NCBI RefSeq assembly: GCF_900143685.1
Contig: NZ_LT671675.1
Coordinates: forward strand, 1,605,985-1,669,984
Reading direction: 5' to 3'
Length of the DNA stretch: 64,000 nt
From: Parolsenella massiliensis
GTDB taxonomy: Bacteria > Actinomycetota > Coriobacteriia > Coriobacteriales > Atopobiaceae
Shown: piece after piece, positions 5,815 through 48,613 of the stretch
How the letters are laid out: every line of letters starts with the position of its first letter
How positions within the stretch are numbered: the first letter of the stretch is position 1
Program-made: the position numbers and the translations under genes
Notes under the pieces: generated by a model
Told to the model about the DNA's origin: nothing
The model's database searches: none
What the model saw: only the letters and a program-made list of their open reading frames with translations

Positions 5815-5829
5815 TCGCATGTGACAAAC

Positions 5830-5875
5830 GAACCCGTCCCCAATGGCATGACAGAGGAACCCGTCCCCAATGGCA
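5830..5875. repeat. REP-like repeat, two direct copies
   Basis: The 19-mer GAACCCGTCCCCAATGGCA occurs at 5830-5848 and again at 5857-5875, immediately before the leuB stop codon. Related sequences in either orientation recur at 11569, 28605, 37863 and 40369. This fits a dispersed extragenic repeat family. Confidence 0.7.
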
Positions 5876-6988
5876 CTACAGGGCGGCGACGACCTTGTCG
5901 CCCATCTCGGCGGTACCGATAACGTAATCGGCGGGCGTGGCGGCATCGGCGATGTCGCGGGTGCGCCAGCCCTCGTCGAGCACGCGGGCAACGGCACCCT
6001 CGATCCAGCCTGCCTGCTCGCCCATGTCGAACGCGTACGTGAGCATCATGGCAACCGAGAGGATCTGCGCAAGCGGGTTGGCGATGCCCTGGCCTGCGAT
6101 GTCGGGGGCGCTGCCGGCGCTCGGCTCGAACAGGCTCACGCCGTCTCCCAGCGAGGCCGAGGCAAGCATGCCAAGCGAGCCGGTGATCTGGGCCGCCTCG
6201 TCGGAGAGGATGTCACCGAACATGTTCTCCGTCACCACGATGTCGAAGTCGGCCGGGCGGTTGATGAGCTGCATGGCCGTGTTGTCCACGAGAAGGTCCT
6301 CGAGCTCAACGTCGGCGTACTCCGCGTCGTGGATGCGGTGCACGACCTCGCGCCACATGCGGCTCGTCTCGAGCACGTTGCGCTTGTCCACGCTCGTCAC
6401 CTTGCCGCGACGCTTGCGCGCGGCCTCGAACGCCTGGCGCGCGATGCGCTCGACCTCGTACTCGCGATACTCCATGACATCCACCGCACGCTGGCCGGCC
6501 GCGCCGCCCGTGCCCGCGCCGGCCTCGTCGTAGAAGCGCTCGTGGCTGCCAAAGTAGATGCCGCCCGTGAGCTCGCGGACCAGCACCATGTCTACGCCCT
6601 TGATGACCTCGGGGCGCAGCGTCGAGGCACTGGCGAGCGCGTCGTAGATCTTGACGGGGCGCAGGTTGGTGTAGAGGCCCAGCTCCTTGCGGATGCGCAG
6701 CAGCCCCTGCTCGGGGCGCGGGGCGGCAGGGTCGGTGGAGTCCCACTTGGGGCCGCCCACGCTCGCAAGCAACACCGCGTCGCTCGCACGGGCCGCATCG
6801 AGCGTCTCGGGCGGCAGCGGGTCTGCGCACGCGTCGATGGCGGCGCCGCCGATGAGGGCGTCGGTGCACTCGAACGACACGCCGGCGCGTTCTCCCACCG
6901 CAGCCAGCACCTTCTTGCCCTCGACGATGATCTCGGGGCCAATGCCATCACCGGGCAGGCAGCAGACCTTGTAGCTCTTCTCGGCCAT
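5876..6988 (-). CDS. leuB: 3-isopropylmalate dehydrogenase
   Basis: The 370-residue enzyme oxidises and decarboxylates (2R,3S)-3-isopropylmalate with NAD+ to 2-oxoisocaproate, the third step of leucine biosynthesis. The N-terminus has the family pattern CCLPGDGIGPEII. The substrate and NAD regions are recognisable in LLASVGGPKWD, LRPVKIYDAL and VRELTGGIYFG, and in the metal-binding segment TENMFGDILSDEAAQ. It is the last gene of leuA-leuC-leuD-leuB and starts three bases after the leuD stop codon. Length and motifs are normal for bacterial LeuB. Confidence 0.96.
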   Translation of the reverse strand: MAEKSYKVCCLPGDGIGPEIIVEGKKVLAAVGERAGVSFECTDALIGGAAIDACADPLPPETLDAARASDAVLLASVGGPKWDSTDPAAPRPEQGLLRIRKELGLYTNLRPVKIYDALASASTLRPEVIKGVDMVLVRELTGGIYFGSHERFYDEAGAGTGGAAGQRAVDVMEYREYEVERIARQAFEAARKRRGKVTSVDKRNVLETSRMWREVVHRIHDAEYADVELEDLLVDNTAMQLINRPADFDIVVTENMFGDILSDEAAQITGSLGMLASASLGDGVSLFEPSAGSAPDIAGQGIANPLAQILSVAMMLTYAFDMGEQAGWIEGAVARVLDEGWRTRDIADAATPADYVIGTAEMGDKVVAAL

Positions 6989-11564: not shown

Positions 11565-11568
11565 CACG

Positions 11569-11596
11569 TGTCATTGGGGACGGGTTCGTTTGTCAT
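11569..11596. repeat. REP-like repeat
   Basis: The segment contains TCATTGGGGACGGGTTCGTT, the reverse-complement form of the repeat at 5830-5875, with TGTCA/TGTCAT at its ends. It sits in the short gap between the HAD gene and tRNA-Gln. Confidence 0.65.
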
Positions 11597-11644
11597 GCCC
11601 GCCAGGCCGCGAGCTGCTACACTTATGCGCGCCAGCGTGTCGCT

Positions 11645-27961: not shown

Positions 27962-28609
27962 TTGGGCAACGAGAGCTACACGCTGTACGTGAGATGCGGG
28001 GACGACGCCTCTAGCGCCGTCCCCGTTTGCGTGACGCGCAAGCGCGTGAGAAACCTCAACCTGCGCGTCCATGGCGACGGCAGCGTCGTGGCGAGCGTCC
28101 CGTGGCACACGTCACGCGAGCGGGCGCAGCAGTTCCTCGACGCGCACGCGGCATGGATCTTCTCGCGTGTCTCGAACAAGGCGGAACGGCAGGACAGGCG
28201 CGAGAACGACTCGCCCGCCTATGCCCTGTGGGGCCGCGAGCTGCGCACGGAAGACGGGCACACACCAAGCGCAGAGGAGCTCGACACCCTGTGGCGACGT
28301 GAGGTCGAGCGGGCGCTGCCCGGGGTCATCGCGCGCATGGAGCCGCTCGTTGAGGCCCATGCCACGTCGTGGCAGCTGCGGGCCATGAGCAGCAGGTGGG
28401 GCTCGTGCACACCCGCCCGCGGCAGCATCCGCATCAACGTACGCCTGGCCGCCTGGCCGCCCGAGTGCCTGGACTACGTGGTTGCCCACGAGCTCGCGCA
28501 CCTTCTCGAGCCCTCGCACAACGCGCGCTTCCACGCCATCGTGGCTCGCGCCATCCCAGGCGAGCGCGCCATCCGCGCTCGCCTTCGCCAGCCACCCGCA
28601 TCACGGTGA
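27962..28609 (+). CDS. YgjP/SprT-like zinc metallopeptidase domain protein
   Basis: The 215-residue protein carries the zinc signature VVAHELAHLLEPSHNARFH near residues 177-195. Upstream is the family block MSSRWGSCTPARGSIRINVR. Together these mark the YgjP-like (DUF45) metal-dependent hydrolase family. The N-terminal part (TRKRVRNLNLRVHGDGSVVA) is also typical. Biological substrate unknown. The start is a TTG at 27962, 12 bases after the xpt stop codon, so it is probably cotranscribed with xpt. A REP-like repeat follows. Confidence 0.85.
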   Translation: MGNESYTLYVRCGDDASSAVPVCVTRKRVRNLNLRVHGDGSVVASVPWHTSRERAQQFLDAHAAWIFSRVSNKAERQDRRENDSPAYALWGRELRTEDGHTPSAEELDTLWRREVERALPGVIARMEPLVEAHATSWQLRAMSSRWGSCTPARGSIRINVRLAAWPPECLDYVVAHELAHLLEPSHNARFHAIVARAIPGERAIRARLRQPPASR

Positions 28610-28671
28610 CAGTTTGACCCCGTCCCCAAGTGTCACGGCGACAGGTGGGGACGGGGTCGCTTTGTCACCGC
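28605..28671. repeat. REPIN-like pair of inverted REP sequences
   Basis: GACCCCGTCCCC (28616-28627) and GGGGACGGGGTC (28647-28658) are perfect complements with a 19-base loop. GTGACAG and CTTTGTCAC flank them. This is the doublet form of the repeat seen singly elsewhere in the window. Confidence 0.7.
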
Positions 28672-29689: not shown

Positions 29690-29783
29690 CATCTTCCACC
29701 GAGCGCTGCAAATCAGACACTTACGAGCCCTTCGAGGCCGCTAACTGTCTGATTTGCGGCGCTCGCGGATCCGTGGCGCCATC
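29690..29783. repeat. Variable-stem hairpin repeat, family B copy 1
   Basis: GAGCGCTGCAAATCAGACA (29701-29719) pairs with 29746-29764 over 19 positions with one wobble. The 26-base loop ends CGCTAAC. The right side continues GGATCCGTGGCGCCATC, a flank shared with the copy at 35371. It lies in the 296-base gap between arsR and the PRD regulator gene. Confidence 0.7.
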
Positions 29784-29933
29784 GCAAACGACTGGAAATG
29801 GATTGGCCACGAAGGCCAAATCGTCCTGACGCCAACTATAAATGTTCAGTTATTTGTCGATATTGGTTGACACCGCTCGGCATGGAACGTCGGAAGCTCT
29901 CTCCCTAGGATGGTTATTAGAGGGAGGGGACGG

Positions 29934-31973
29934 ATGGCTGCTGAGACGCACATAACGGACGTAGTTGGCTACGTCGAGACGCATAGCCGTTGCACCCTCG
30001 CGGCGATTGCGAACCATCTCGACATCAAGGAGCGCACCGCACGCTCCTACATCCAGCGCGCCAACAACATGCTCCAGGGATTTGCCGCCATCGAATATGT
30101 TGCGGCCGAGCGTGGCTATGAGCTCAGGGTCCGAGACACTGCCGCCTATTCCCGTTGGAAGGAGCATGCGCTGGGCTCAGCGCGTCCGCCCCTCCCCTCC
30201 ACTCCGGAGGGCCGCGTCGGCTACCTTCTCATGGACCTGCTCTTCCGCACCGACTGGGTGACCCTCGACGACCTTGCGAACATCCTGTTCGTCTCGCGGG
30301 CCTCCATCTCCTCAGACCTCAAGCGGGTCGACGACGAGCTCGGCCGCTTTGACCTATCGCTCGAGCGCAAGCCGCACTATGGCATTCGCGTGGTGGGAAG
30401 CGAGATGAACCGGAGGCTCTGCATCGCCGGAATCGTCGCAAGCTCCGAGGGGCCGGGGTCGGCGGGCGTCGACTCCGCGCAGGGAGCGCCCATCGAGGAG
30501 CTCTTCTCGTCGCTCGGCGCCGCCTCGGACCCTGCAACCGAGAAGACACGCCTCCATGCCGCCGCCTCGTGCGTAGACGATGCGGCGGCGGAGGCCGACT
30601 TCACCGTCAACTCGGCTGCATACCAGAACCTCATCGTCCACATCGCCGTAGCCATGATGCGGATAGAGGAGGGTTGCTACGTTCCCCTGGACGAGCGGCA
30701 CGTCAGCTCCATCAGTGACTCCGAGTCATTCGCCGTCGCCTCACGCACTGCCGAGCTTATCAAGCAGCGCCTGGGTCTCGAGCTGCCGCGTGAGGAGATC
30801 GCCTACATGGCGATTCACCTCGCCGGCAAGCAGACGTTGAACAAGATGGCGCCAGCCGAAGACAACCTCGTCATCGATTCTGGCGTCTGGGACGTCGTCA
30901 CGAGCATGCTCAACGACGTCTGGGGGACGTTCCGCTTCGACTTCAGGCATGACCTCGAGCTGCGCATGAACCTCGCGCGCCACATCGTGCCGCTCTCCGT
31001 GCGCATGCGCTACCACATGGAGCTCAAGAACCCCCTGCTCGACAGCATCAAGACCAGGTACCCGCTCGCATGGTCGATGGCGCTCGAGACCGCCCCCATC
31101 CTCGAGAAGGAGTACGGCTCGCGCCTCTCCGAGGACGAGCGCGGCTACATCGCCCTCGCCTTCGCGCTGGCACTGGAGCGCGACGCCACGAACCGTCCCA
31201 AGAAGCGTCTGCTCGTCGTGTGCGCGAGCGGGGCCGGAACGTCTCGCCTCCTCGAATATCGCTGCCGCAAGGAGTTCAGCGACTGGATCGGCGACATCGA
31301 GACGTGCGACGCCTTCCATCTCGACAACGTCGACTTCAGCCAGATCGACTACGTCTTCACGACGGTGCACATCGACCAGAAGCTGCCTGCACCCATCTGC
31401 GAGCTTCACAACTTCCTCGACGCGGCTGAGGCCGAGCAGCTTCGCGACGTTCTTCGAAAGGGTCATTGCGACGCACCCGCGCAGAGCGTCTCGTTTTTCT
31501 CGAAAGACCTCTTCTTCACGCATGCCAAGCTCTCCACAAAGGACGAGGTGCTCGAGTTTCTGCTCGGGCAGGCCCGGGAGAAGAGGGGCATGGACGAGAG
31601 GTTCTGCGAGGCCGTACGCAACCGTGAGACCGTCGTGGCGACCTCGCTGGGCAACGACGTGGCCATGCCACATCCCGTCGAGGCCACGAGCGCGCAAACC
31701 TTTGGAATCGTTGCGCTTCTTGACGAGCCGGTTGCGTGGGACGACCTTGGGCACACGGTGCGCGCCGTCTTCCTCATGTCTTTCTCGCGCTCTGGCGGCA
31801 GACAGGTGCAGGCGCTCATCTCGACGCTTGCCGAGCTCATGAGCAGCCCGAGCGCCATGGCCACGCTCGTCAAGCACCAGGAATGGGAAACCTTCTGCGC
31901 CCTTCTGGGCGCCATTGAGTCTGACGAATCCGCTGCGGAGTCTCGCGGCACGCTACACGCATCGGGGAGGTGA
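29934..31973 (+). CDS. BglG-type PRD regulator with PTS IIB-like and IIA domains
   Basis: The 679-residue protein has two N-terminal helix-turn-helix parts (AAIANHLDIKERTARSYIQR and LDDLANILFVSRASISSDLK). Two PRD domains follow (about residues 190-410), then a IIB-like domain (KKRLLVVCASGAGTSRLLEY) and a C-terminal PTS IIA domain of the fructose/mannitol type (about 520-665). This is the MtlR/LicR activator layout, controlled by phosphorylation through HPr and the cognate IIB. It opens the PTS-mupG operon and would activate it when the sugar is transported. The ATG at 29934 follows AGGGAGGGGA. Confidence 0.9.
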   Translation: MAAETHITDVVGYVETHSRCTLAAIANHLDIKERTARSYIQRANNMLQGFAAIEYVAAERGYELRVRDTAAYSRWKEHALGSARPPLPSTPEGRVGYLLMDLLFRTDWVTLDDLANILFVSRASISSDLKRVDDELGRFDLSLERKPHYGIRVVGSEMNRRLCIAGIVASSEGPGSAGVDSAQGAPIEELFSSLGAASDPATEKTRLHAAASCVDDAAAEADFTVNSAAYQNLIVHIAVAMMRIEEGCYVPLDERHVSSISDSESFAVASRTAELIKQRLGLELPREEIAYMAIHLAGKQTLNKMAPAEDNLVIDSGVWDVVTSMLNDVWGTFRFDFRHDLELRMNLARHIVPLSVRMRYHMELKNPLLDSIKTRYPLAWSMALETAPILEKEYGSRLSEDERGYIALAFALALERDATNRPKKRLLVVCASGAGTSRLLEYRCRKEFSDWIGDIETCDAFHLDNVDFSQIDYVFTTVHIDQKLPAPICELHNFLDAAEAEQLRDVLRKGHCDAPAQSVSFFSKDLFFTHAKLSTKDEVLEFLLGQAREKRGMDERFCEAVRNRETVVATSLGNDVAMPHPVEATSAQTFGIVALLDEPVAWDDLGHTVRAVFLMSFSRSGGRQVQALISTLAELMSSPSAMATLVKHQEWETFCALLGAIESDESAAESRGTLHASGR

Positions 31974-31978
31974 CACAC

Positions 31979-32329
31979 ATGGCAGAAATCACCCAGGAGA
32001 AGCAGGCCGAGGCCTTTGACAACGAGACGTTCTCGTTTGGCCTCATCGGAGACGCCGGAATGGCCCGCAGCCTCGCCTTCGAGGCCCTCAAGGCGGCCAA
32101 GAAGGGAGACTTCGCGCACGCCGACGAGCTCATGGAGCAGTCCAAGCAGGCCGGCCTCGAGGCCCATCACAAGCAGACGAGCCTGCTCGTTCGCGAGGCT
32201 GGCGGAGACCACGTCCCCGTCGACGTGATGCTCGTCCACGCGCAGGACCACCTCATGACCTCGATGCTCGCCCAGGAGCTCATCGAGGAGATCATCGAGC
32301 TGCGCCGCGAGCTTGCCGAGCGCAAGTAG
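31979..32329 (+). CDS. PTS lactose/cellobiose-type IIA component
   Basis: The 116-residue protein is all-helical and matches the PTS-LacF/CelC IIA family. It contains FGLIGDAGMARSLAFEALKA, the central helix HADELMEQSKQAGLEAHHKQ, and VMLVHAQDHLMTSMLAQELI with the His expected to carry the phosphate. It relays phosphate from HPr to IIB. The ATG at 31979 lies eight bases after GGGGAGG; GTG at 31970 is an alternative. It comes five bases after the regulator gene. Confidence 0.92.
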   Translation: MAEITQEKQAEAFDNETFSFGLIGDAGMARSLAFEALKAAKKGDFAHADELMEQSKQAGLEAHHKQTSLLVREAGGDHVPVDVMLVHAQDHLMTSMLAQELIEEIIELRRELAERK

Positions 32330-32397
32330 GCATCTCGCGCCAATAGCCGCCATGCGGCTCTGCACCATCTGACGACAACGGAAAAAACAACTCGCAA

Positions 32398-32420
32398 CCG
32401 ATAGCCCAAAGGGCCATCGG
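32398..32420 (+). terminator. Intercistronic hairpin between IIA and IIB genes
   Basis: CCGATAGCCC and GGGCCATCGG pair around an AAA loop with one mismatch, 13 bases before the IIB start. No U-run follows, so it is more likely an mRNA stability or processing element than a full terminator. Confidence 0.4.
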
Positions 32421-32433
32421 AAAGGGGATTGCT

Positions 32434-32727
32434 ATGAAAGTACTGCTTGTTTGCGCCGCCGGCATGTCCACCTCGATCCTCATGAAGAAGATGGAGAAGT
32501 ACGCCGCCGAGCAGGGCATCGACCTCACGATCGAGGCCCACGGCTTCTCCGAGGCCCCCGAGTACGCCTCTGACTTCGAGTGCATCCTCGTTGGCCCGCA
32601 GGTGGGCTACCGCAAGGACGAGCTGGCCGAGACCTGTGGCCTGCCCACGGCGGTCATCCCACCGGCCGACTACGGCATGGGCAACTGCGCCAACATCTTC
32701 AAGCTCATCCACAGCCTGATTGGCTAA
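32434..32727 (+). CDS. PTS lactose/cellobiose-type IIB component
   Basis: The 97-residue protein has the phosphorylated Cys in the P-loop KVLLVCAAGMSTSILMKKM (Cys7) and the fold of cellobiose IIB. The sugar specificity cannot be read from it, but the partner IIC and the MupG-like enzyme suggest a disaccharide. It sits between IIA and IIC. Confidence 0.93.
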   Translation: MKVLLVCAAGMSTSILMKKMEKYAAEQGIDLTIEAHGFSEAPEYASDFECILVGPQVGYRKDELAETCGLPTAVIPPADYGMGNCANIFKLIHSLIG

Positions 32728-32749
32728 ATCTCACATAAGGAGGACCAGC

Positions 32750-34051
32750 ATGGCCCTTGAAAACATGTTCGAGAGCCCCATCATCCAGAAGCTCCAGGCT
32801 CTCGGCGCCAAGTCCCAGTCAAGTCCAACTCTCTCGACCATATCCTCGGGCATGATGACCACGCTCTCCATCATCATGGCGGGCGCCGTGTTCACCATCG
32901 TCTCGAGCATCCTCAACATCACGGGGCTCATCGGCACCGACAGCGCACTGTACCAGTGGCTGCAGTTGCCCTACAACATGACGATTGGCGTCATGAGCCT
33001 CATCATCGCCTTCGCGCTCGGATATCAGTACACCAAGGCCCTCAAGATGAAGGGCGAGCTTGCCAACGGCATCGTCACGCTTGTGCTGTTCATGATGGTG
33101 TGCTCTCCCATCAAGAGCGTCACGCTGCAGGACGGCACCACGGCCTCCGTGCTTGACTCAACCTACCTGGGCGGGTCGGGCATGTTCACGGCAATCATCG
33201 TCTCGCTCATCGCCGTGCGCATCATCAAGCTTTGCCAGGACAAGCACATCGTCCTCACGATGCCTGACTCCGTACCGCAGTACCTCGCCGACTCGTTCAG
33301 CGCCGTCATCCCGCTCGTCATCAACATCGTGCTCTGGACCGGCCTCAACACCCTGTGCGAGACCTTCATGGGCGCCGCGCTCCCCGGCGTCATCATGGGC
33401 ATCCTCGCCATGCCGCTCGCCGGCCTCAACTCCGTTCCCGGCATGTTCATTGTGGCCCTCGTTGGCCTGCTCTGCTGGTGCCTCGGCATCCACGGCACGG
33501 GCGTCATCATGATTGTCCTCATGCCTGTTTTCATGCAGTACTACGCAGACAACGCGGCCGCCCACGCCGCCGGTGTCGCAATGACCCTGCAGCCCGTTGC
33601 CCTCTACTTCCTCGCACAGTGTGGCGGAGGCTCGGGCAACATGTTCCCGCTTGCCGCGCTCTGCTGCCGCGCCAAGTCCGAGCAGCTCAAGGCCATCGGC
33701 AAGGTTGGCCTCGTACCGTCCATCTTCAACATCTCCGAGCCCATGATCTTCGGCGTGCCCGTGATGTACAACCCGCTCATCGCCATCCCGTTCATTCTCA
33801 ACACGCTCATCAGCATGCTTGTCATCTACCTGCTGTACGTCGTGGGCTTCTTCCAGCCGCAGTACATCATGATCATGTCCTCCCTGCCGATCTTCATGGC
33901 CGACTACCTCACCAGCATGGCTTGGCAGAACCTCTTCATCCCCGTAATCTGCATTGTCGTGGGCTTCATCACCTACCTGCCGTTCGTGAAGCTCTATGAC
34001 AAGCAGCTCTGCGAGCAGGAGGCCGCCAACTCAGCTGCCGAGCAGGCCTAG
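32750..34051 (+). CDS. PTS lactose/cellobiose-type IIC permease
   Basis: The 433-residue membrane protein has about ten membrane segments and IIC-Lac/Cel features such as GVPVMYNPLIAIPFILNTLI near residue 340 and LCWCLGIHGTGVIMIVLMPV. It imports the sugar, which IIB phosphorylates. The ATG at 32750 has AAGGAGG upstream. It is followed by the MupG-like glycosidase gene, so the transported disaccharide 6-phosphate is probably that enzyme's substrate. Confidence 0.93.
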   Translation: MALENMFESPIIQKLQALGAKSQSSPTLSTISSGMMTTLSIIMAGAVFTIVSSILNITGLIGTDSALYQWLQLPYNMTIGVMSLIIAFALGYQYTKALKMKGELANGIVTLVLFMMVCSPIKSVTLQDGTTASVLDSTYLGGSGMFTAIIVSLIAVRIIKLCQDKHIVLTMPDSVPQYLADSFSAVIPLVINIVLWTGLNTLCETFMGAALPGVIMGILAMPLAGLNSVPGMFIVALVGLLCWCLGIHGTGVIMIVLMPVFMQYYADNAAAHAAGVAMTLQPVALYFLAQCGGGSGNMFPLAALCCRAKSEQLKAIGKVGLVPSIFNISEPMIFGVPVMYNPLIAIPFILNTLISMLVIYLLYVVGFFQPQYIMIMSSLPIFMADYLTSMAWQNLFIPVICIVVGFITYLPFVKLYDKQLCEQEAANSAAEQA

Positions 34052-34129
34052 TGCGTGGACCCTACCCCACTCGCCCACCCCAAGCGCGGGCGCATGTCTT
34101 GTGTCCGCACCTCCAGAAAGGAAGTACCC

Positions 34130-35242
34130 ATGCAGAAGAAGCGTCTTGGCATCTCGCTCTATCCCGAGTTTGCCTCCCAGGAGGAGAACTTCGCCTATCT
34201 CGAGCGCGCTGCGGCGCAAGGCTTTGACCTGCTGTTCATTGCTCTGCTCGGCGTCCAGGACGGCCCCGATGCCGTCAAGGAGCGCTACCTGCCCTACATG
34301 GAGCGTGCCAAGGAGCTCGGCTTCGAGATCGAGTCGGACGTTAACCCGATGGTCTTCGGTCGTCTCGGCGTCAAGGCGAGCCTGTTCGCCGGCGGCCCCG
34401 ACCTCTCGTTCTTCAAGGATCTCCACATCGACATCCTGCGCCTCGACCTCGGCATGACGGAGCTCGAGGAGGCCGCCCTCACCAAGAACCCCGAGGGCAT
34501 CAAGATCTGCATCAACGGCGCCACGACCTCCGACCACGTGGGCGCCCTGCTCGACGCCGGCGCGGACCGCGACATGCTCGTGGGCTGCCACAACTATTAC
34601 CCGCACCGCTACACGGGCGTCTCGCTCGACTTCTTCAACCAGGGCAGCGAGAACTGGACGCGCCGCGGCCTGCGCCTGCAGTCGTTCATCTCCTCGAACG
34701 CTCCTGGCGCCTTTGGCCCCTGGCCCGTCACGGAGGGCCTGCCCACCCTCGAGATGCACCGCGACCTGCCCATCTCCGTGCAGGCAAAGCACTACATGAT
34801 GATGGAGGGCGTCACCGACATCCTCATCTCAAACTGCTTCGCCACCGACGAGGAGCTCGCCGCCGTGGCCGCCGCCAACACCGACCGCGTCACGTTCACG
34901 GCAACGCCGGTCGAGGGCCTGCCCGCAGACCAGCGCGAGCGCGCCCTCATGAACCTCTCCGTTCGCGGCGACTCCCTCGGTGGCGGCTATCTGGTTCGCA
35001 CCTTCGAGAGCCGCATGAACCCCGCCGTCGTCGAGCCGTTCAACACCGTTGACATCAAGCGCGGCGATGTGCTCATCGACAACAAGCTCTACGGCCAGTA
35101 CGCCGGCGAGGTGCAGATTGCCCAGGCCGACATGAAGAACAGCGGCAAGACCAACGTCGTGGGCCACATCGTGCCCGAGGAGCACGTCCTGCTCGACTAC
35201 CTCGGCACCGGTCAGCCCTTCACCTTCGACTTCACCGAGTAG
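34130..35242 (+). CDS. mupG: DUF871 / MupG-type 6-phospho-glycosidase (GH170)
   Basis: The 370-residue protein belongs to the DUF871 family, whose characterised member MupG of Staphylococcus aureus is a 6-phospho-N-acetylmuramidase. Recognisable parts are RLGISLYPEFASQEENFAYL, the barrel strand FEIESDVNPMVFG, HNYYPHRYTGVSLDFFN and GPWPVTEGLPTLEMHR. It would hydrolyse an incoming phosphorylated disaccharide such as MurNAc-6P-GlcNAc in the cytoplasm. The PTS genes upstream are of the Lac/Cel class rather than the MurP class, so the true sugar is uncertain. A good terminator follows. Confidence 0.8.
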   Translation: MQKKRLGISLYPEFASQEENFAYLERAAAQGFDLLFIALLGVQDGPDAVKERYLPYMERAKELGFEIESDVNPMVFGRLGVKASLFAGGPDLSFFKDLHIDILRLDLGMTELEEAALTKNPEGIKICINGATTSDHVGALLDAGADRDMLVGCHNYYPHRYTGVSLDFFNQGSENWTRRGLRLQSFISSNAPGAFGPWPVTEGLPTLEMHRDLPISVQAKHYMMMEGVTDILISNCFATDEELAAVAAANTDRVTFTATPVEGLPADQRERALMNLSVRGDSLGGGYLVRTFESRMNPAVVEPFNTVDIKRGDVLIDNKLYGQYAGEVQIAQADMKNSGKTNVVGHIVPEEHVLLDYLGTGQPFTFDFTE

Positions 35243-35286
35243 ACAACGAGCGGACTCCTCCCCCTTCGACTCCGCTCGAGTTGTCC

Positions 35287-35318
35287 GAGCCGCCGGCCCA
35301 AGCGTCGGCGGCTCTTTT
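35287..35318 (+). terminator. Intrinsic terminator of the PTS-mupG operon
   Basis: GAGCCGCCGG (35287-35296) pairs with CGGCGGCTC (35306-35314) and is followed by TTTT. Confidence 0.85.
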
Positions 35319-35370
35319 CGTCTCGGTCGGCATCGCAGCGCTCGCGGGTCTGCGTCGCCCACGCTCCATC

Positions 35371-35457
35371 GCGAGTGTAGATATCTAGACAGATAGGCCT
35401 CGTTTTGCCGTCTAACTGTCTGATTATCTACACTCGCGGATCCGTGGCGCCATCCCA
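35371..35457. repeat. Variable-stem hairpin repeat, family B copy 2
   Basis: GCGAGTGTAGATA (35371-35383) pairs with TATCTACACTCGC at its right arm (35425-35437); inner parts pair imperfectly. The loop ends GTCTAAC, and the right flank GGATCCGTGGCGCCATC is identical to that of the copy at 29701-29783. The stem sequence differs strongly from that copy. It fills the gap between mupG and the metal operon. Confidence 0.7.
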
Positions 35458-35890: not shown

Positions 35891-37840
35891 ATGGCCAGCA
35901 GCACCGCAAAGCCCAAGAAGAAGCGCCGCAAGAAGGAGTCGATGCAGCACAAGCGCAACCGCATCCTTCTCGCCCTGGCGATCTTCGCCGTCGTCTACGC
36001 CGCAGACGAGCTCGGGGCGCTCGCCTCCATCTTTGGCGAGCCCGGCGCGCTCTATGCGAGCTTCGTCCTGTTCCTCGTCCCCTTCGTCATCGCGGGCCAC
36101 GACGTGCTCGAGAAGGCCTGGAACAACATCCGCAAGGGCAAGGCCTTCGACGAGAGTTTCCTCATGGCCGTCGCCACGATCGGCGCGTTTGCCATGATCT
36201 TGTTCCCCAACGCAGACCCGCACATGGCCGAGGGCGCGGCCGTCATGCTGTTCTACCAGGTAGGCGAGCTGTTCCAGGCCTACGCCGTGGGCAAGAGCCG
36301 CAAGTCCATCTCTGACATGATGGACATAGCCCCCGACTTCGCCAACGTCGAGAACGACGCCGGCGAGCTCGAGCAGGTCGACCCCGACGAGGTGGCCGTG
36401 GGCACCGTCATCGTCATCAAGCCCGGCGAGCGCGTTCCCATCGACGGCACGATCGTCGACGGCAGCTCCCAGCTCGACACTGCCGCCCTCACTGGCGAGT
36501 CCATGCCGCGCCACGTCGACGCCGGCGACGACGTCATCTCCGGCTGCATCAACATGACGGGCCTTCTGCGCGTGCGCACCACCAAGCCCTTCGGCGAGTC
36601 CACGGTGAGCCGCATCCTCGAGCTCGTGGAGAACGCGAGCGAGAAGAAGGCCCGCACCGAGAACTTCATCACCCGCTTCGCCCGCGTCTACACGCCCGCC
36701 GTCACGGGAGCCGCCGTGGCGCTCGCCCTCATCGGCGGCCTCGTCACGGGCGCCTGGGCAGACTGGATCTTGCGCGGCCTCACGTTCCTCGTCGTCTCGT
36801 GCCCGTGCGCGCTCGTCATCTCCGTGCCCCTGTCGTTCTTTGGCGGCATCGGTGGCGCGTCGAAGATCGGCGTGCTCGTGAAGGGCTCCAACTACCTCGA
36901 GGCGCTCTCCGAGGTCGACACCGTGGTGTTCGACAAGACCGGCACGCTCACGAAGGGCGAGTTCAAGGTCGTGGCGACCCATCCCGAGTCCGGCTTCACC
37001 GAGGAGGACCTCCTCGAGCTCGCCGCGCACGCCGAGGCCTTCTCGGACCACCCCATCGCCGTGAGCGTGCGCGAGGCGTACTCCGGCACGCTCGACCCCA
37101 AGCGCGTGAGCGAGTCGGGCAACGAGGCGGGCCACGGCGTCACGGCCACGATCGACGGCCACCGCGTCCTCGTGGGCAACGAGAAGCTCATGGCCAAGGT
37201 GGGCGTGGACGCCCCCAGCTGCGAGGTCGTGGGCACGATTTTGCACGTGACGGTCGACGGCGCCTACGCCGGCCACATCGTGATCGCCGACGTCGTGAAG
37301 GACGACGCCGCCCAGACCATCGCCGACCTGCACTCGGTGGGAATCCGCCGCTGCGTCATGCTCACGGGAGACCGCAAGGAGGTCGCCGCCGACGTTGCCG
37401 AGAGGCTCGGCCTGGACGAGTTCCACGCGCAGCTGCTCCCCGCCGACAAGGTCGAGCAGGTCGAGCGCCTTCTCGCCTCCGAGGGTGACAAGTGCAAGCT
37501 CGCGTTCGTGGGAGACGGCATCAACGACGCGCCCGTGCTCACGCGCGCCGACGTGGGCATCGCCATGGGCGCCATGGGCTCGGACGCCGCCATCGAGGCC
37601 GCCGACGTCGTCCTCATGGACGACAAGCCCTCCAACATCGCGCGCGCCATCCGCGTGGCCCGCAAGACCATGCGCATCGTGTGGCAGAACATCGTGTTCG
37701 CCTTGGCCGTGAAGCTTCTCATCCTCGTGCTTGCGGCCCTGGGCATCGCGAACATGTGGCTCGCCGTGTTCGGCGACGTGGGCGTGGCCATCATCGCCAT
37801 CCTGAACGCCATGCGCGCCATGAACGTCAAAGACGCGTAG
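35891..37840 (+). CDS. Heavy-metal P1B-type ATPase (Zn/Cd-type exporter)
   Basis: The 649-residue membrane ATPase has a Lys/Arg-rich N-terminus (KPKKKRRKKESMQHKR). The transport motif CPC lies near residue 305 in VVSCPCALVISVPLSFFGGI, the phosphorylation motif DKTGTLTKGE near 348 and GDGINDAPVL near 541. The metal-site motif and overall form are those of ZntA/CadA-type Zn2+/Cd2+/Pb2+ exporters. There is no N-terminal CxxC domain; the separate HMA protein upstream appears to supply it. An ATG at 35846 lies within the operator, so the ATG at 35891 (GGGAG upstream) is preferred. Confidence 0.9.
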   Translation: MASSTAKPKKKRRKKESMQHKRNRILLALAIFAVVYAADELGALASIFGEPGALYASFVLFLVPFVIAGHDVLEKAWNNIRKGKAFDESFLMAVATIGAFAMILFPNADPHMAEGAAVMLFYQVGELFQAYAVGKSRKSISDMMDIAPDFANVENDAGELEQVDPDEVAVGTVIVIKPGERVPIDGTIVDGSSQLDTAALTGESMPRHVDAGDDVISGCINMTGLLRVRTTKPFGESTVSRILELVENASEKKARTENFITRFARVYTPAVTGAAVALALIGGLVTGAWADWILRGLTFLVVSCPCALVISVPLSFFGGIGGASKIGVLVKGSNYLEALSEVDTVVFDKTGTLTKGEFKVVATHPESGFTEEDLLELAAHAEAFSDHPIAVSVREAYSGTLDPKRVSESGNEAGHGVTATIDGHRVLVGNEKLMAKVGVDAPSCEVVGTILHVTVDGAYAGHIVIADVVKDDAAQTIADLHSVGIRRCVMLTGDRKEVAADVAERLGLDEFHAQLLPADKVEQVERLLASEGDKCKLAFVGDGINDAPVLTRADVGIAMGAMGSDAAIEAADVVLMDDKPSNIARAIRVARKTMRIVWQNIVFALAVKLLILVLAALGIANMWLAVFGDVGVAIIAILNAMRAMNVKDA

Positions 37841-37862: not shown

Positions 37863-37916
37863 GGGGACGGGTTCCACTGGCAGGTTCCGGCAGACCTGCC
37901 AACAGGACCCGTCCCC
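37863..37916. repeat. REP-like inverted pair after the metal ATPase
   Basis: GGGGACGGGT (37863-37872) pairs with ACCCGTCCCC (37907-37916), and inside it TGGCAGGT (37878-37885) pairs with ACCTGCCA (37894-37901). AATGGCA follows on the right. The core is the same as the other REP-like repeats in the window. Confidence 0.7.
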
Positions 37917-37946
37917 AATGGCAGGTTGCGATGCCGAGCAAGATCA

Positions 37947-40329: not shown

Positions 40330-40368
40330 TCACGCGGACACCTGAGAATCGTCAGCGACCCCGCCTCC

Positions 40369-40443
40369 CGGTGACACCTGGGGACGGGGTCGTTTTGTCA
40401 CCGCGCCAACGGCGACAGTTTAGCCCCTTTCCCAACTGTCACC
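40369..40443. repeat. REP-like repeat, one intact and one decayed half
   Basis: GGTGACA and TGTCACC flank GGGGACGGGGTCGTTT, the repeat core. A decayed second half (GACAGTT...AACTGTC around TAGCCCCTTTCCC) follows. The right end overlaps the stop codon of the leftward ABC gene. Confidence 0.65.
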
Positions 40444-45769: not shown

Positions 45770-46435
45770 ATGCAGTTCGATCTCGACAAGAGCGTGCGCT
45801 ACGGCCTCGCCTACTCCGGCGGCGTCGACTCGTGCTACCTGCTTGCGGAGCTGCTCCGCCAGGGCTACGACGTCAAGGCCTACACCATCCTCGACGACCT
45901 GCAGATCACGCGCGACACGGACGACTCCGTGACGATCGCCAAGATGCTCGGCGCCGAGCAGGAGATCATCCCCATCAACATCTGGGACGGCCACGAGGAC
46001 CTGCGCGCCAACCCGTGGGACCGCTGCTACCATTGCAAGTCCATGGTGTTCGGGACCATCCTCGAGCACATGCGCGCAGATGGCCGCACCGTGCTTCTCG
46101 ACGGCACGAACGCCAGCGACCGCGAGGACCGCCGACCGGGCTTCCGCGCCATCCACGAGCTGGGCATCGTCTCGCCGCTGCGCGCCGCCGGCCTCACGAA
46201 GGACCAGGTGCGCGAGAACTCCGCCAAGCTGGGCCTGCCCACGGCCAACAAGCCGAGCTACGCCTGCTACGGTGCCTATTTTGGCAAGAACGAGGCCATC
46301 ACGCCCGAGTCTCTGAGAAAGACGGTCGACGCGTTCATGGCCTCCCACCCAGACGCGGCAGACCGCGTGCGCACCGACGGCAACATCGACCCGAGTCCGG
46401 CCGAGGCCGCCGCGCTCGCCCGAGAGAAGGCGTAG
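45770..46435 (+). CDS. larE: ATP-dependent sulfur transferase LarE
   Basis: The 221-residue protein is of the LarE/NAD-synthase-like PP-loop family. The ATP-binding motif is [18 protein letters not shown], and later come [18 protein letters not shown] and the segment [14 protein letters not shown]. The latter holds a Cys in the position of the sacrificial Cys of Lactiplantibacillus LarE. LarE inserts sulfur into the nickel-pincer nucleotide precursor made by LarB. It is somewhat shorter than typical LarE (about 270). It starts at the ATG at 45770 behind AGGAGG and leads the larE-larB-larC operon. Confidence 0.9.
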
Positions 46436-46437
46436 CG

Positions 46438-47175
46438 GTGGTGACGAAGGTGCCGGGATCAACTGTCACCGAGGGAGACGTGGCCAACATCGGCTTCGCC
46501 GAGCTCGACCTCTCGCGCGGCGCCAGGTGCGGCGCGGGCGAAGTCGTCTACGGCGAGGGCAAGACGGCCGAGCAGATTGCCGGCATCGTCGACGCGCTTG
46601 TGGCGGCAGGCCAGGCCCACGTGCTCGTCACGCGCCTCTCCGCCGAGAAGTTCTCGCGCGCACGCGAGCTGCTCACCTGCGGCGTCGAGCTCGAGTATCG
46701 CGCCGACGCCCGCCTCGCTATCGCGGGCGGCATGCCCAAGGCAGACGGAAACGGCACCATCGTCGTGGCCTGCGCGGGCACGAGCGACCTTCCCGTGGCA
46801 GAGGAGGCCGCCCTCACGGCGGAGTTCCTCGGAAACCGCGTCGAGCGCGTATGGGACGTGGGCGTCGCCGGGCTCCACCGGCTGCTGGCACACACCGACC
46901 AGCTCGCGAGGGCGCAGGTCGTCATAGCCGTCGCCGGCATGGAGGGGGCGCTCGCAAGCGTCATCGGCGGGCTCGTGAGCTGCCCTGTCATCGCGGTGCC
47001 CACGAGCATCGGCTACGGCGCGAACCTCGGCGGGCTGTCGGCCCTACTCTCCATGCTCAACTCGTGCGCAAGCGGCGTGAGCGTCGTGAACATCGACAAC
47101 GGCTTTGGCGCCGGCTACCAGGCAAGCCTCATCAACCACCTGCCGGGGCGCACCTCGGCGGGTGCCCAGCGATAG
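46438..47175 (+). CDS. larB: Nickel pincer cofactor biosynthesis protein LarB
   Basis: The 245-residue protein is the nicotinate adenine dinucleotide carboxylase/hydrolase LarB. The AIR-carboxylase-like core is visible in [40 protein letters not shown] and [20 protein letters not shown]. The N-terminal [16 protein letters not shown] is also typical. It starts at GTG 46438 (or GTG 46441), two bases after the larE stop codon, and is followed by larC after seven bases. Confidence 0.92.
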
Positions 47176-47182
47176 GAGCACC

Positions 47183-48613
47183 ATGGGCACTACCCTCTAC
47201 CTCGACTGCAGCTCCGGCATCAGCGGAGACATGACCGTCGCGGCCCTTCTCGACCTTGGCGCGAGCGAGCAGCGCCTGCGCGAGACGCTCGCCACGCTGC
47301 CGGCGCACGGCTACACCGTGGCCGTCTCGCGCGTGAAGAAGAGCGGCCTGGACGCCTGCGACTTCGACGTCATTCTCGACCACGAGCACGAGAACCACGA
47401 CCACGACATGGCCTGGCTCTACGGCACGACCGACCACGACCACGTCCACGGACACGATCACGAGCACCACCACGCCCACGCCCACGACCACCGCGAGTGT
47501 TGCAAATCAGACACTAACGGCCACGTTTCGGCCCCCAATGTGACCGATTTGCAGCACTCAGCAAGCTGTGAGGGCCACTGCCACGAGCACCATCACCACC
47601 ACGAGCACCGCTCGCTCGCCGACGTCACGGCCATCATCGACGCCTCATCCATGACCGAGCGCGCCAAGCAGCTTGCCCACGCCGTGTTCGCCAAGCTCGC
47701 CGAGGCGGAGGCCAAGGCGCACGGGGCCACGCCCGACACCGTGATGTTTCACGAGGTAGGCGCCGTCGACTCCATCGTCGACATCTGCTCGGTGGCCATC
47801 TGCCTCGACGACCTCGACGTCGCGCAGGTCATCGTGCCCTCGCTCTCAGAGGGCCACGGCACCATCCGCTGCGCGCATGGGATCATGCCCGTGCCCGTGC
47901 CCGCCGTCGTGAACCTGTGCGAGACCGCCCGCATCACGCTTGCGCCCGCACCCGTCGCAGGCGAGCTCGTGACGCCCACGGGCGCCGCCATTGTCGCCGC
48001 GCTGCGCACGGCAACGGCGCTTCCCGCCAGCTACGTCATCAGGAAAAGCGGCTACGGCGCCGGCAAGCGCACCTACGAGAACTGCTCGGGCGTGCTGCGT
48101 GCCGCCCTCATCGCCCCAGACGTCCCAGACGCGGGCGACGGCGACCGGGGCATCGTCACGAAGCTCGAGTGCGACCTCGACGACTGCACGGGCGAGGCGC
48201 TCGGCCGCGTCATCGAGCTGCTCATGGCCGCCGGCGCGCGCGAGGCACACGTCGTGCCGCTCGTGATGAAGAAGGGGCGGCCGGGCCACCAACTCGAGGC
48301 CGTCTGCGACGAGGAGCTCGCGCCCGCCCTCGAGCGCATCATCTTCGAAAACACCACGACCATCGGCATCCGCTCCATGGACATGCGGCGCCACGCACTG
48401 CCGCGAACGCCCGGCGGCGTCGAGACCCCCTTTGGCCACGTCGCCACGAAGCTCGTCGTGATGCCGGACGGGAGCGTGCGCGCCCACCCCGAGTACTCCT
48501 CGGTCGTCAAGGCAAGCGATCGCACGGGGGCGTCGTTCCAGGACGTCTTCCGCGCCACGCAGGCAGCCGCAGACGGCGCGGTCCCCGGCGCCAATGACGC
48601 GAGCGAGGCATAG
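47183..48613 (+). CDS. larC: Nickel insertion protein LarC (single frame)
   Basis: The 476-residue protein inserts nickel into the pincer nucleotide using CTP. The N-terminal part has LYLDCSSGISGDMTVAALLD. A His-rich region (about residues 65-150, for example HDHVHGHDHEHHHAHAHDH) could hold nickel. The middle has VMFHEVGAVDSIVDICSVAI, and the C-terminal part has KLECDLDDCTGEALGRVIEL. In some bacteria LarC is made by frameshifting between larC1 and larC2; here it is one frame. The segment at 47495-47558 inside the His-rich region is a copy of the intergenic hairpin repeat, adding about 20 residues with two Cys. The ATG at 47183 has TAGGAG upstream. Confidence 0.93.
   Translation: MGTTLYLDCSSGISGDMTVAALLDLGASEQRLRETLATLPAHGYTVAVSRVKKSGLDACDFDVILDHEHENHDHDMAWLYGTTDHDHVHGHDHEHHHAHAHDHRECCKSDTNGHVSAPNVTDLQHSASCEGHCHEHHHHHEHRSLADVTAIIDASSMTERAKQLAHAVFAKLAEAEAKAHGATPDTVMFHEVGAVDSIVDICSVAICLDDLDVAQVIVPSLSEGHGTIRCAHGIMPVPVPAVVNLCETARITLAPAPVAGELVTPTGAAIVAALRTATALPASYVIRKSGYGAGKRTYENCSGVLRAALIAPDVPDAGDGDRGIVTKLECDLDDCTGEALGRVIELLMAAGAREAHVVPLVMKKGRPGHQLEAVCDEELAPALERIIFENTTTIGIRSMDMRRHALPRTPGGVETPFGHVATKLVVMPDGSVRAHPEYSSVVKASDRTGASFQDVFRATQAAADGAVPGANDASEA
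47495..47558. repeat. Variable-stem hairpin repeat, family B copy 3, inside larC
   Basis: GAGTGTTGCAAATC (47495-47508) pairs with GATTTGCAGCACTC (47545-47558) with one wobble. The arm GTTGCAAATCAGACAC is almost the same as in the copy at 29701, and the loop has GGCCACGTTTCGGCCCCC. It is in frame within larC and codes for CCKSDTNGHVSAPNVTDLQH in the His-rich linker. Confidence 0.75.

Follow-up and report, generated by a model that had tools for sequence, protein, structure and literature searches.

A REP/MITE-like palindrome within the coding sequence of larC in Parolsenella massiliensis: a probable tolerated in-frame insertion

Dispersed palindromic repeats that lie in frame within conserved protein genes have been described as Rickettsia palindromic elements (RPEs) (PMC10969869, PMC3733652). 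These elements, about 150 bp long, code for conserved peptides; of the ones first reported, almost half lie within ORFs (PMC10969869). The REPs and REPINs of RAYT transposases are short palindromes that lie outside genes, close to gene 3′ ends; they show compensatory stem change and serve as targets of IS elements (PMC2817692, PMC1525189). MITE-type elements are short, have inverted-repeat ends and no gene, are present in some species and absent from others, and occasionally produce in-frame fusions (PMC10969869).

The window analyzed here (64,000 nucleotides of the P. massiliensis genome) contains the gene order larE-larB-larC, with larC as the third gene of the operon (Table 1). The larC product scored above the cut-offs of TIGR00299 and NF052512, and its assignment to LarC is given by PF01969/TIGR00299 together with a LarC2 domain and the adjacent larE and larB. 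The gene is intact, and its reading frame is open through the whole of a hairpin-forming repeat, as the first-pass annotation had stated.

Table 1. Genes of the lar operon and copies of the palindrome family, in window coordinates (R2, second covariance model).
Feature	Position	Strand	Evidence and remarks
larE, sacrificial sulfur transferase	45770-46435	+	TIGR00268, E 7e-45
larB, start approximate	46435-47175	+	NF033503, E 1e-84
larC, nickel-pincer cofactor biosynthesis / nickel insertion protein, 476 aa	47183-48613	+	PF01969, E 3.8e-127
70-nt palindromic repeat in larC	47493-47562	+	R2 69.1 bits, E 4.4e-15; congener larC without repeat
Arms of the larC hairpin	47493-47515 and 47539-47561
Loop of the larC hairpin	47516-47538
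24 inserted codons RECCKSDTNGHVSAPNVTDLQHSA, residues 104-127	47492-47563	+	DNA alignment with congener, codon table
Intergenic copy of the family	29699-29767	+	R2 70.2 bits, E 2.4e-15
Third window copy, divergent stem subfamily (GCGAGTGTAGATATC...)	35371-35438	+	R2 57.7 bits, E 3e-12

In larC, 24 codons stand where the congener has about one, a net gain of 69 nt or 23 codons; the ends of the insert are uncertain by a few bases, and the flanking His codons are repetitive. The hairpin, which carries the arm GTTGCAAATCAGACAC at 47499-47514, has a folding energy of −33.7 kcal/mol (z −6.4), and none of 200 shuffles folded as well. The element encodes the Cys106-Cys107 pair (in E-C-C-K), and the insert also brings two His residues; the C-E-G-H-C residues neighboring the Cys pair lie outside the element, and the insert is poorer in His than the surrounding linker. 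No Rfam match was obtained across 47000-48000 at E values up to 1. The repeat had initially been described as 64 bases (47495-47558) adding about 20 residues, including the Cys pair. The repeat is real and the Cys pair is encoded by it, but its extent is 70 nt and the net gain relative to the closest relative is 23 residues. The proposed match to an intergenic repeat at about 29701 was borne out, both copies belonging to one hairpin family (E values of 4.4e-15 and 2.4e-15, from R2 scores that lean upward, since the three window copies are among the model's 30 training sequences).

The intergenic copy has the arm GCTGCAAATCAGACAC at about 29705-29720 and, near 29705, folds at −47.7 kcal/mol (z −8.7; 0 of 200 shuffles fold as well). 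The third copy was missing from the first-pass listing. The core pattern alone, without the covariance model, already recovers all three. The two hairpins outside larC bracket a gene cluster of ∼5.6 kb (29699-35438), of which the first ORF is BglG/PTS-regulator-like (named by eye), and GATCCGTGGCGCCATC follows both of them. At the orthologous place in the congener, the cluster is missing and a single hairpin is present.

The 13-base core is rare, with four exact matches in the 2.0-Mb genome, and when two mismatches are allowed many inward-facing pairs appear, ∼40-55 bases apart. Aligned copies give a 70-nt palindrome whose consensus begins GCGAGCGCTGCAAATC... and reads roughly GCGAG(C/T)G(C/T)(T/A)GC-AAATC-(A/G)G(A/T)CACT, followed by a loop of ∼25 nt and then the reverse complement; the 23-bp arms are its inverted-repeat ends. 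Across 30 copies, the stem is paired in 89% of cells, and changes on both stem sides occupy 60 cells compared with 25 ± 4 in shuffles. The covariation score is 0.29, compared with 0.15 in shuffles, and pairing falls to 28-40% when the partner is offset by 1-3 bases. The family keeps its structure, not sequence alone. No reading frame is consistently open across the copies, so that no conserved peptide is encoded, and 43% of six-frame readings are open.

With the second covariance model, 18 intact copies were found in the P. massiliensis genome and 16 in the congener, the one further species of the genus in the sample; one additional P. massiliensis copy is split by an IS3 element. Among the remaining genomes of the 140-genome family sample, the first covariance model gave isolated weak matches at best, and 396 genomes of the class gave weaker matches (best E about 1e-9). 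Palindromes of equal length and layout, whose stems are specific to each lineage (for example GAGCGTGGATAATCTCCCACTTT...AAAGTGGGAGATTATCCACGCTC), are present in other genera of the Coriobacteriales (L184-L201), and common descent of these class-wide palindromes with the larC hairpin family is plausible. The arm pattern was unmatched in viral contigs.

When gene overlap was judged by reading frame and a third-position GC test, 33 of the 34 intact copies in both species were found to lie outside genes, the larC copy being the only intragenic one; since copies in orthologous spacers are interdependent, the effective number is nearer 22 than 34. Each of the 33 extragenic copies borders the 3′ end of one gene or more, and under the same gene calling none lies in a divergent spacer. 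ORF overlaps of two copies in other genera (L135 and L200) were set aside as probable spurious start extensions. A terminator role is not favored: the palindromes lack a T-run, and one copy (L203) stands beside a separate terminator-like hairpin that has one (by eye).

The congener LarC, which is 83% identical, aligns on both sides of the insert and lacks this block alone. Nor did the covariance model detect the family hairpin in any of the 32 further LarC loci searched, which include the nearest outgroups at 66-70% identity. Because the congener and these loci are without the hairpin, it was most likely gained in the P. massiliensis lineage after the split from the congener, P. massiliensis being represented by one genome. 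A short GAGCGCTCGGCG at the insertion site in the congener larC resembles the element ends and could be chance or a scar. Eleven hairpin positions are common to both species, and several further positions hold a hairpin in one species while the orthologous spacer of its congener is empty, which points to mobility of the family. No target-site duplication was discernible in the filled/empty pairs, the spacers being too diverged and the larC His codons repetitive. Some of the shared positions carry different stem subfamilies in the two species (L122 versus L175; the L202 pair versus the L171 pair). This swap at orthologous spacers means that copies within a genome can be more alike than orthologues, and it suggests replacement or gene conversion among copies, that is, concerted replacement of a dispersed repeat.

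Two Y1_Tnp (RAYT-like) genes are present in P. massiliensis, at contig positions 37386 (L162) and 1374509 (L164). Neither is flanked by the larC hairpin family, and no transposase was tied to the family. The repeats flanking the RAYTs are other palindromes, TGACAAAGGGACAG... and GGGGACGGG..., and mobilization by RAYT was rejected because both genes have these own, different repeats. The GGGGACGGG repeat of the second RAYT was also observed in the window at 5822-5876, 11566-11603, 28604-28670, 37889-37926, and 40366-40403. No parental transposon with shared ends was found either, the sole candidate being an IS3-family element that sits in a hairpin loop and has its own, different ends; the copy split by it is the only long-spaced arm pair in P. 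massiliensis. This element lies at contig positions 1522262-1523632 (L115, L183), and a second copy, 82% identical, is found at 202692-203918 (L212), flanked by imperfect inverted repeats. This placement recalls IS elements that target REPs. Another IS3-family element is present in five near-identical copies (L213-L217), with a GGCCC-like sequence ∼10-15 bases downstream of each (by eye).

In the AlphaFold model, LarC residues 76-136 have pLDDT values below 50 except residue 118, with confident domains on either side; low pLDDT in the linker is also expected from a gappy alignment and is supporting rather than independent evidence. Sampled LarC linkers range from 30 to 144 residues (median 56), that of P. 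massiliensis being 76 by the same measure, and in relatives, whose LarC has no such insert, the linker is already rich in His and contains some Cys. A random coding insertion would be open and in frame in about 14% of cases, or around one in seven, because the one-third chance of keeping the frame is multiplied by the 43% of readings that are open (1/3 × 0.43). The insert is best read, with a probability of roughly 0.8, as a REP/MITE-like element that entered the gene in frame by accident after the split from the congener and was tolerated. A non-autonomous palindrome of ∼70 bp would have been copied or moved into the His-rich larC linker after the species diverged. Its survival would be explained by a net length that is a multiple of three, an open frame, and a disordered, length-tolerant linker, and LarC may now carry about 23 additional residues of little consequence. 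The suggestion that a mobile hairpin entered a tolerant linker of this nickel-handling protein is supported: the repeat belongs to the dispersed family, is present in larC in one lineage among those sampled, and lies in a linker that is disordered and variable in length.

The sole intragenic copy might instead have been retained for a reason. The first-pass annotation went further and proposed domestication. On such a reading, the added Cys-Cys and His residues would have been selected because they help LarC to capture nickel, or the strong hairpin would adjust translation of the larC mRNA. The segment does lie within a linker of metal-binding type, to which it brings Cys106-Cys107 and two His, and the −33.7 kcal/mol hairpin is retained in larC mRNA. 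However, relatives' linkers already have His and some Cys, the insert is His-poor against its surroundings, and one sequence represents the species, so that a selected new function is unsupported and, judged from the sequences compared, would be unlikely. If true, the recruited hairpin would join the few intragenic palindromes that have been domesticated outside Rickettsiales.

Still less probable is a selfish, RPE-like element with a peptide adapted to survive within proteins; the palindrome is in frame within a conserved gene, as in the RPE review (PMC10969869), but only one copy in 34 is intragenic and the copies share no consistently open frame that could conserve a peptide. The REP-like distribution at 3′ ends also argues against such a specialized element. 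An equally slim prospect is that the hairpin is ancestral in larC and was lost almost precisely in the congener, a history with which the GAGCGCTCGGCG stretch would fit, but none of the 32 other LarC loci, nearest outgroups included, matches the family. That ordinary coding sequence resembles the repeat by chance can be given almost no weight: no supporting point was found, and the E value of 4.4e-15 in the window, the common paired arms, and the block missing in the relative stand against it. The refuting condition named in the first-pass annotation, the same residues on unrelated DNA in relatives, was checked and did not overturn the insertion reading, the residues themselves being missing there.

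The preferred reading, a tolerated insertion, makes larC a clean case, with a filled site, an empty sister site, and sampled outgroups without the hairpin, of a non-coding palindrome turned into protein sequence outside Rickettsiales. One copy in 34 is a measured denominator for the rarity of such an insertion. The analysis also uncovers a Coriobacteriales palindrome family with members kept at shared spacers of two species even as one stem sequence is replaced by another. In the literature searched, no earlier description of this family or of its in-frame insertion was found.

The closest precedent is provided by RPEs, which share with the larC hairpin a palindrome in frame within a conserved protein gene. 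The larC family differs in its length of 70 bp, in having no conserved frame and hence no conserved peptide, and in its 1/34 intragenic frequency, RPEs being in genes far more often. It resembles REP/REPIN sequences in its extragenic position near gene 3′ ends, its compensatory stem change, and its use as an IS target, but it has no GTAG- or GTGG-type head beside a 20-40-nt palindrome, is 70 nt long, numbers fewer than 20 copies, and flanks no RAYT. With regard to MITE-type elements, no parental IS with matching ends was found and no target-site duplication was discernible between the diverged spacers. The larC family is like these elements in being short (∼70 nt), with inverted-repeat ends (23-bp arms) and no ORF of its own, in its presence and absence between species, and in the in-frame fusion. 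The larC insertion is a new example of a known in-frame palindromic-repeat accident rather than proof of new function.
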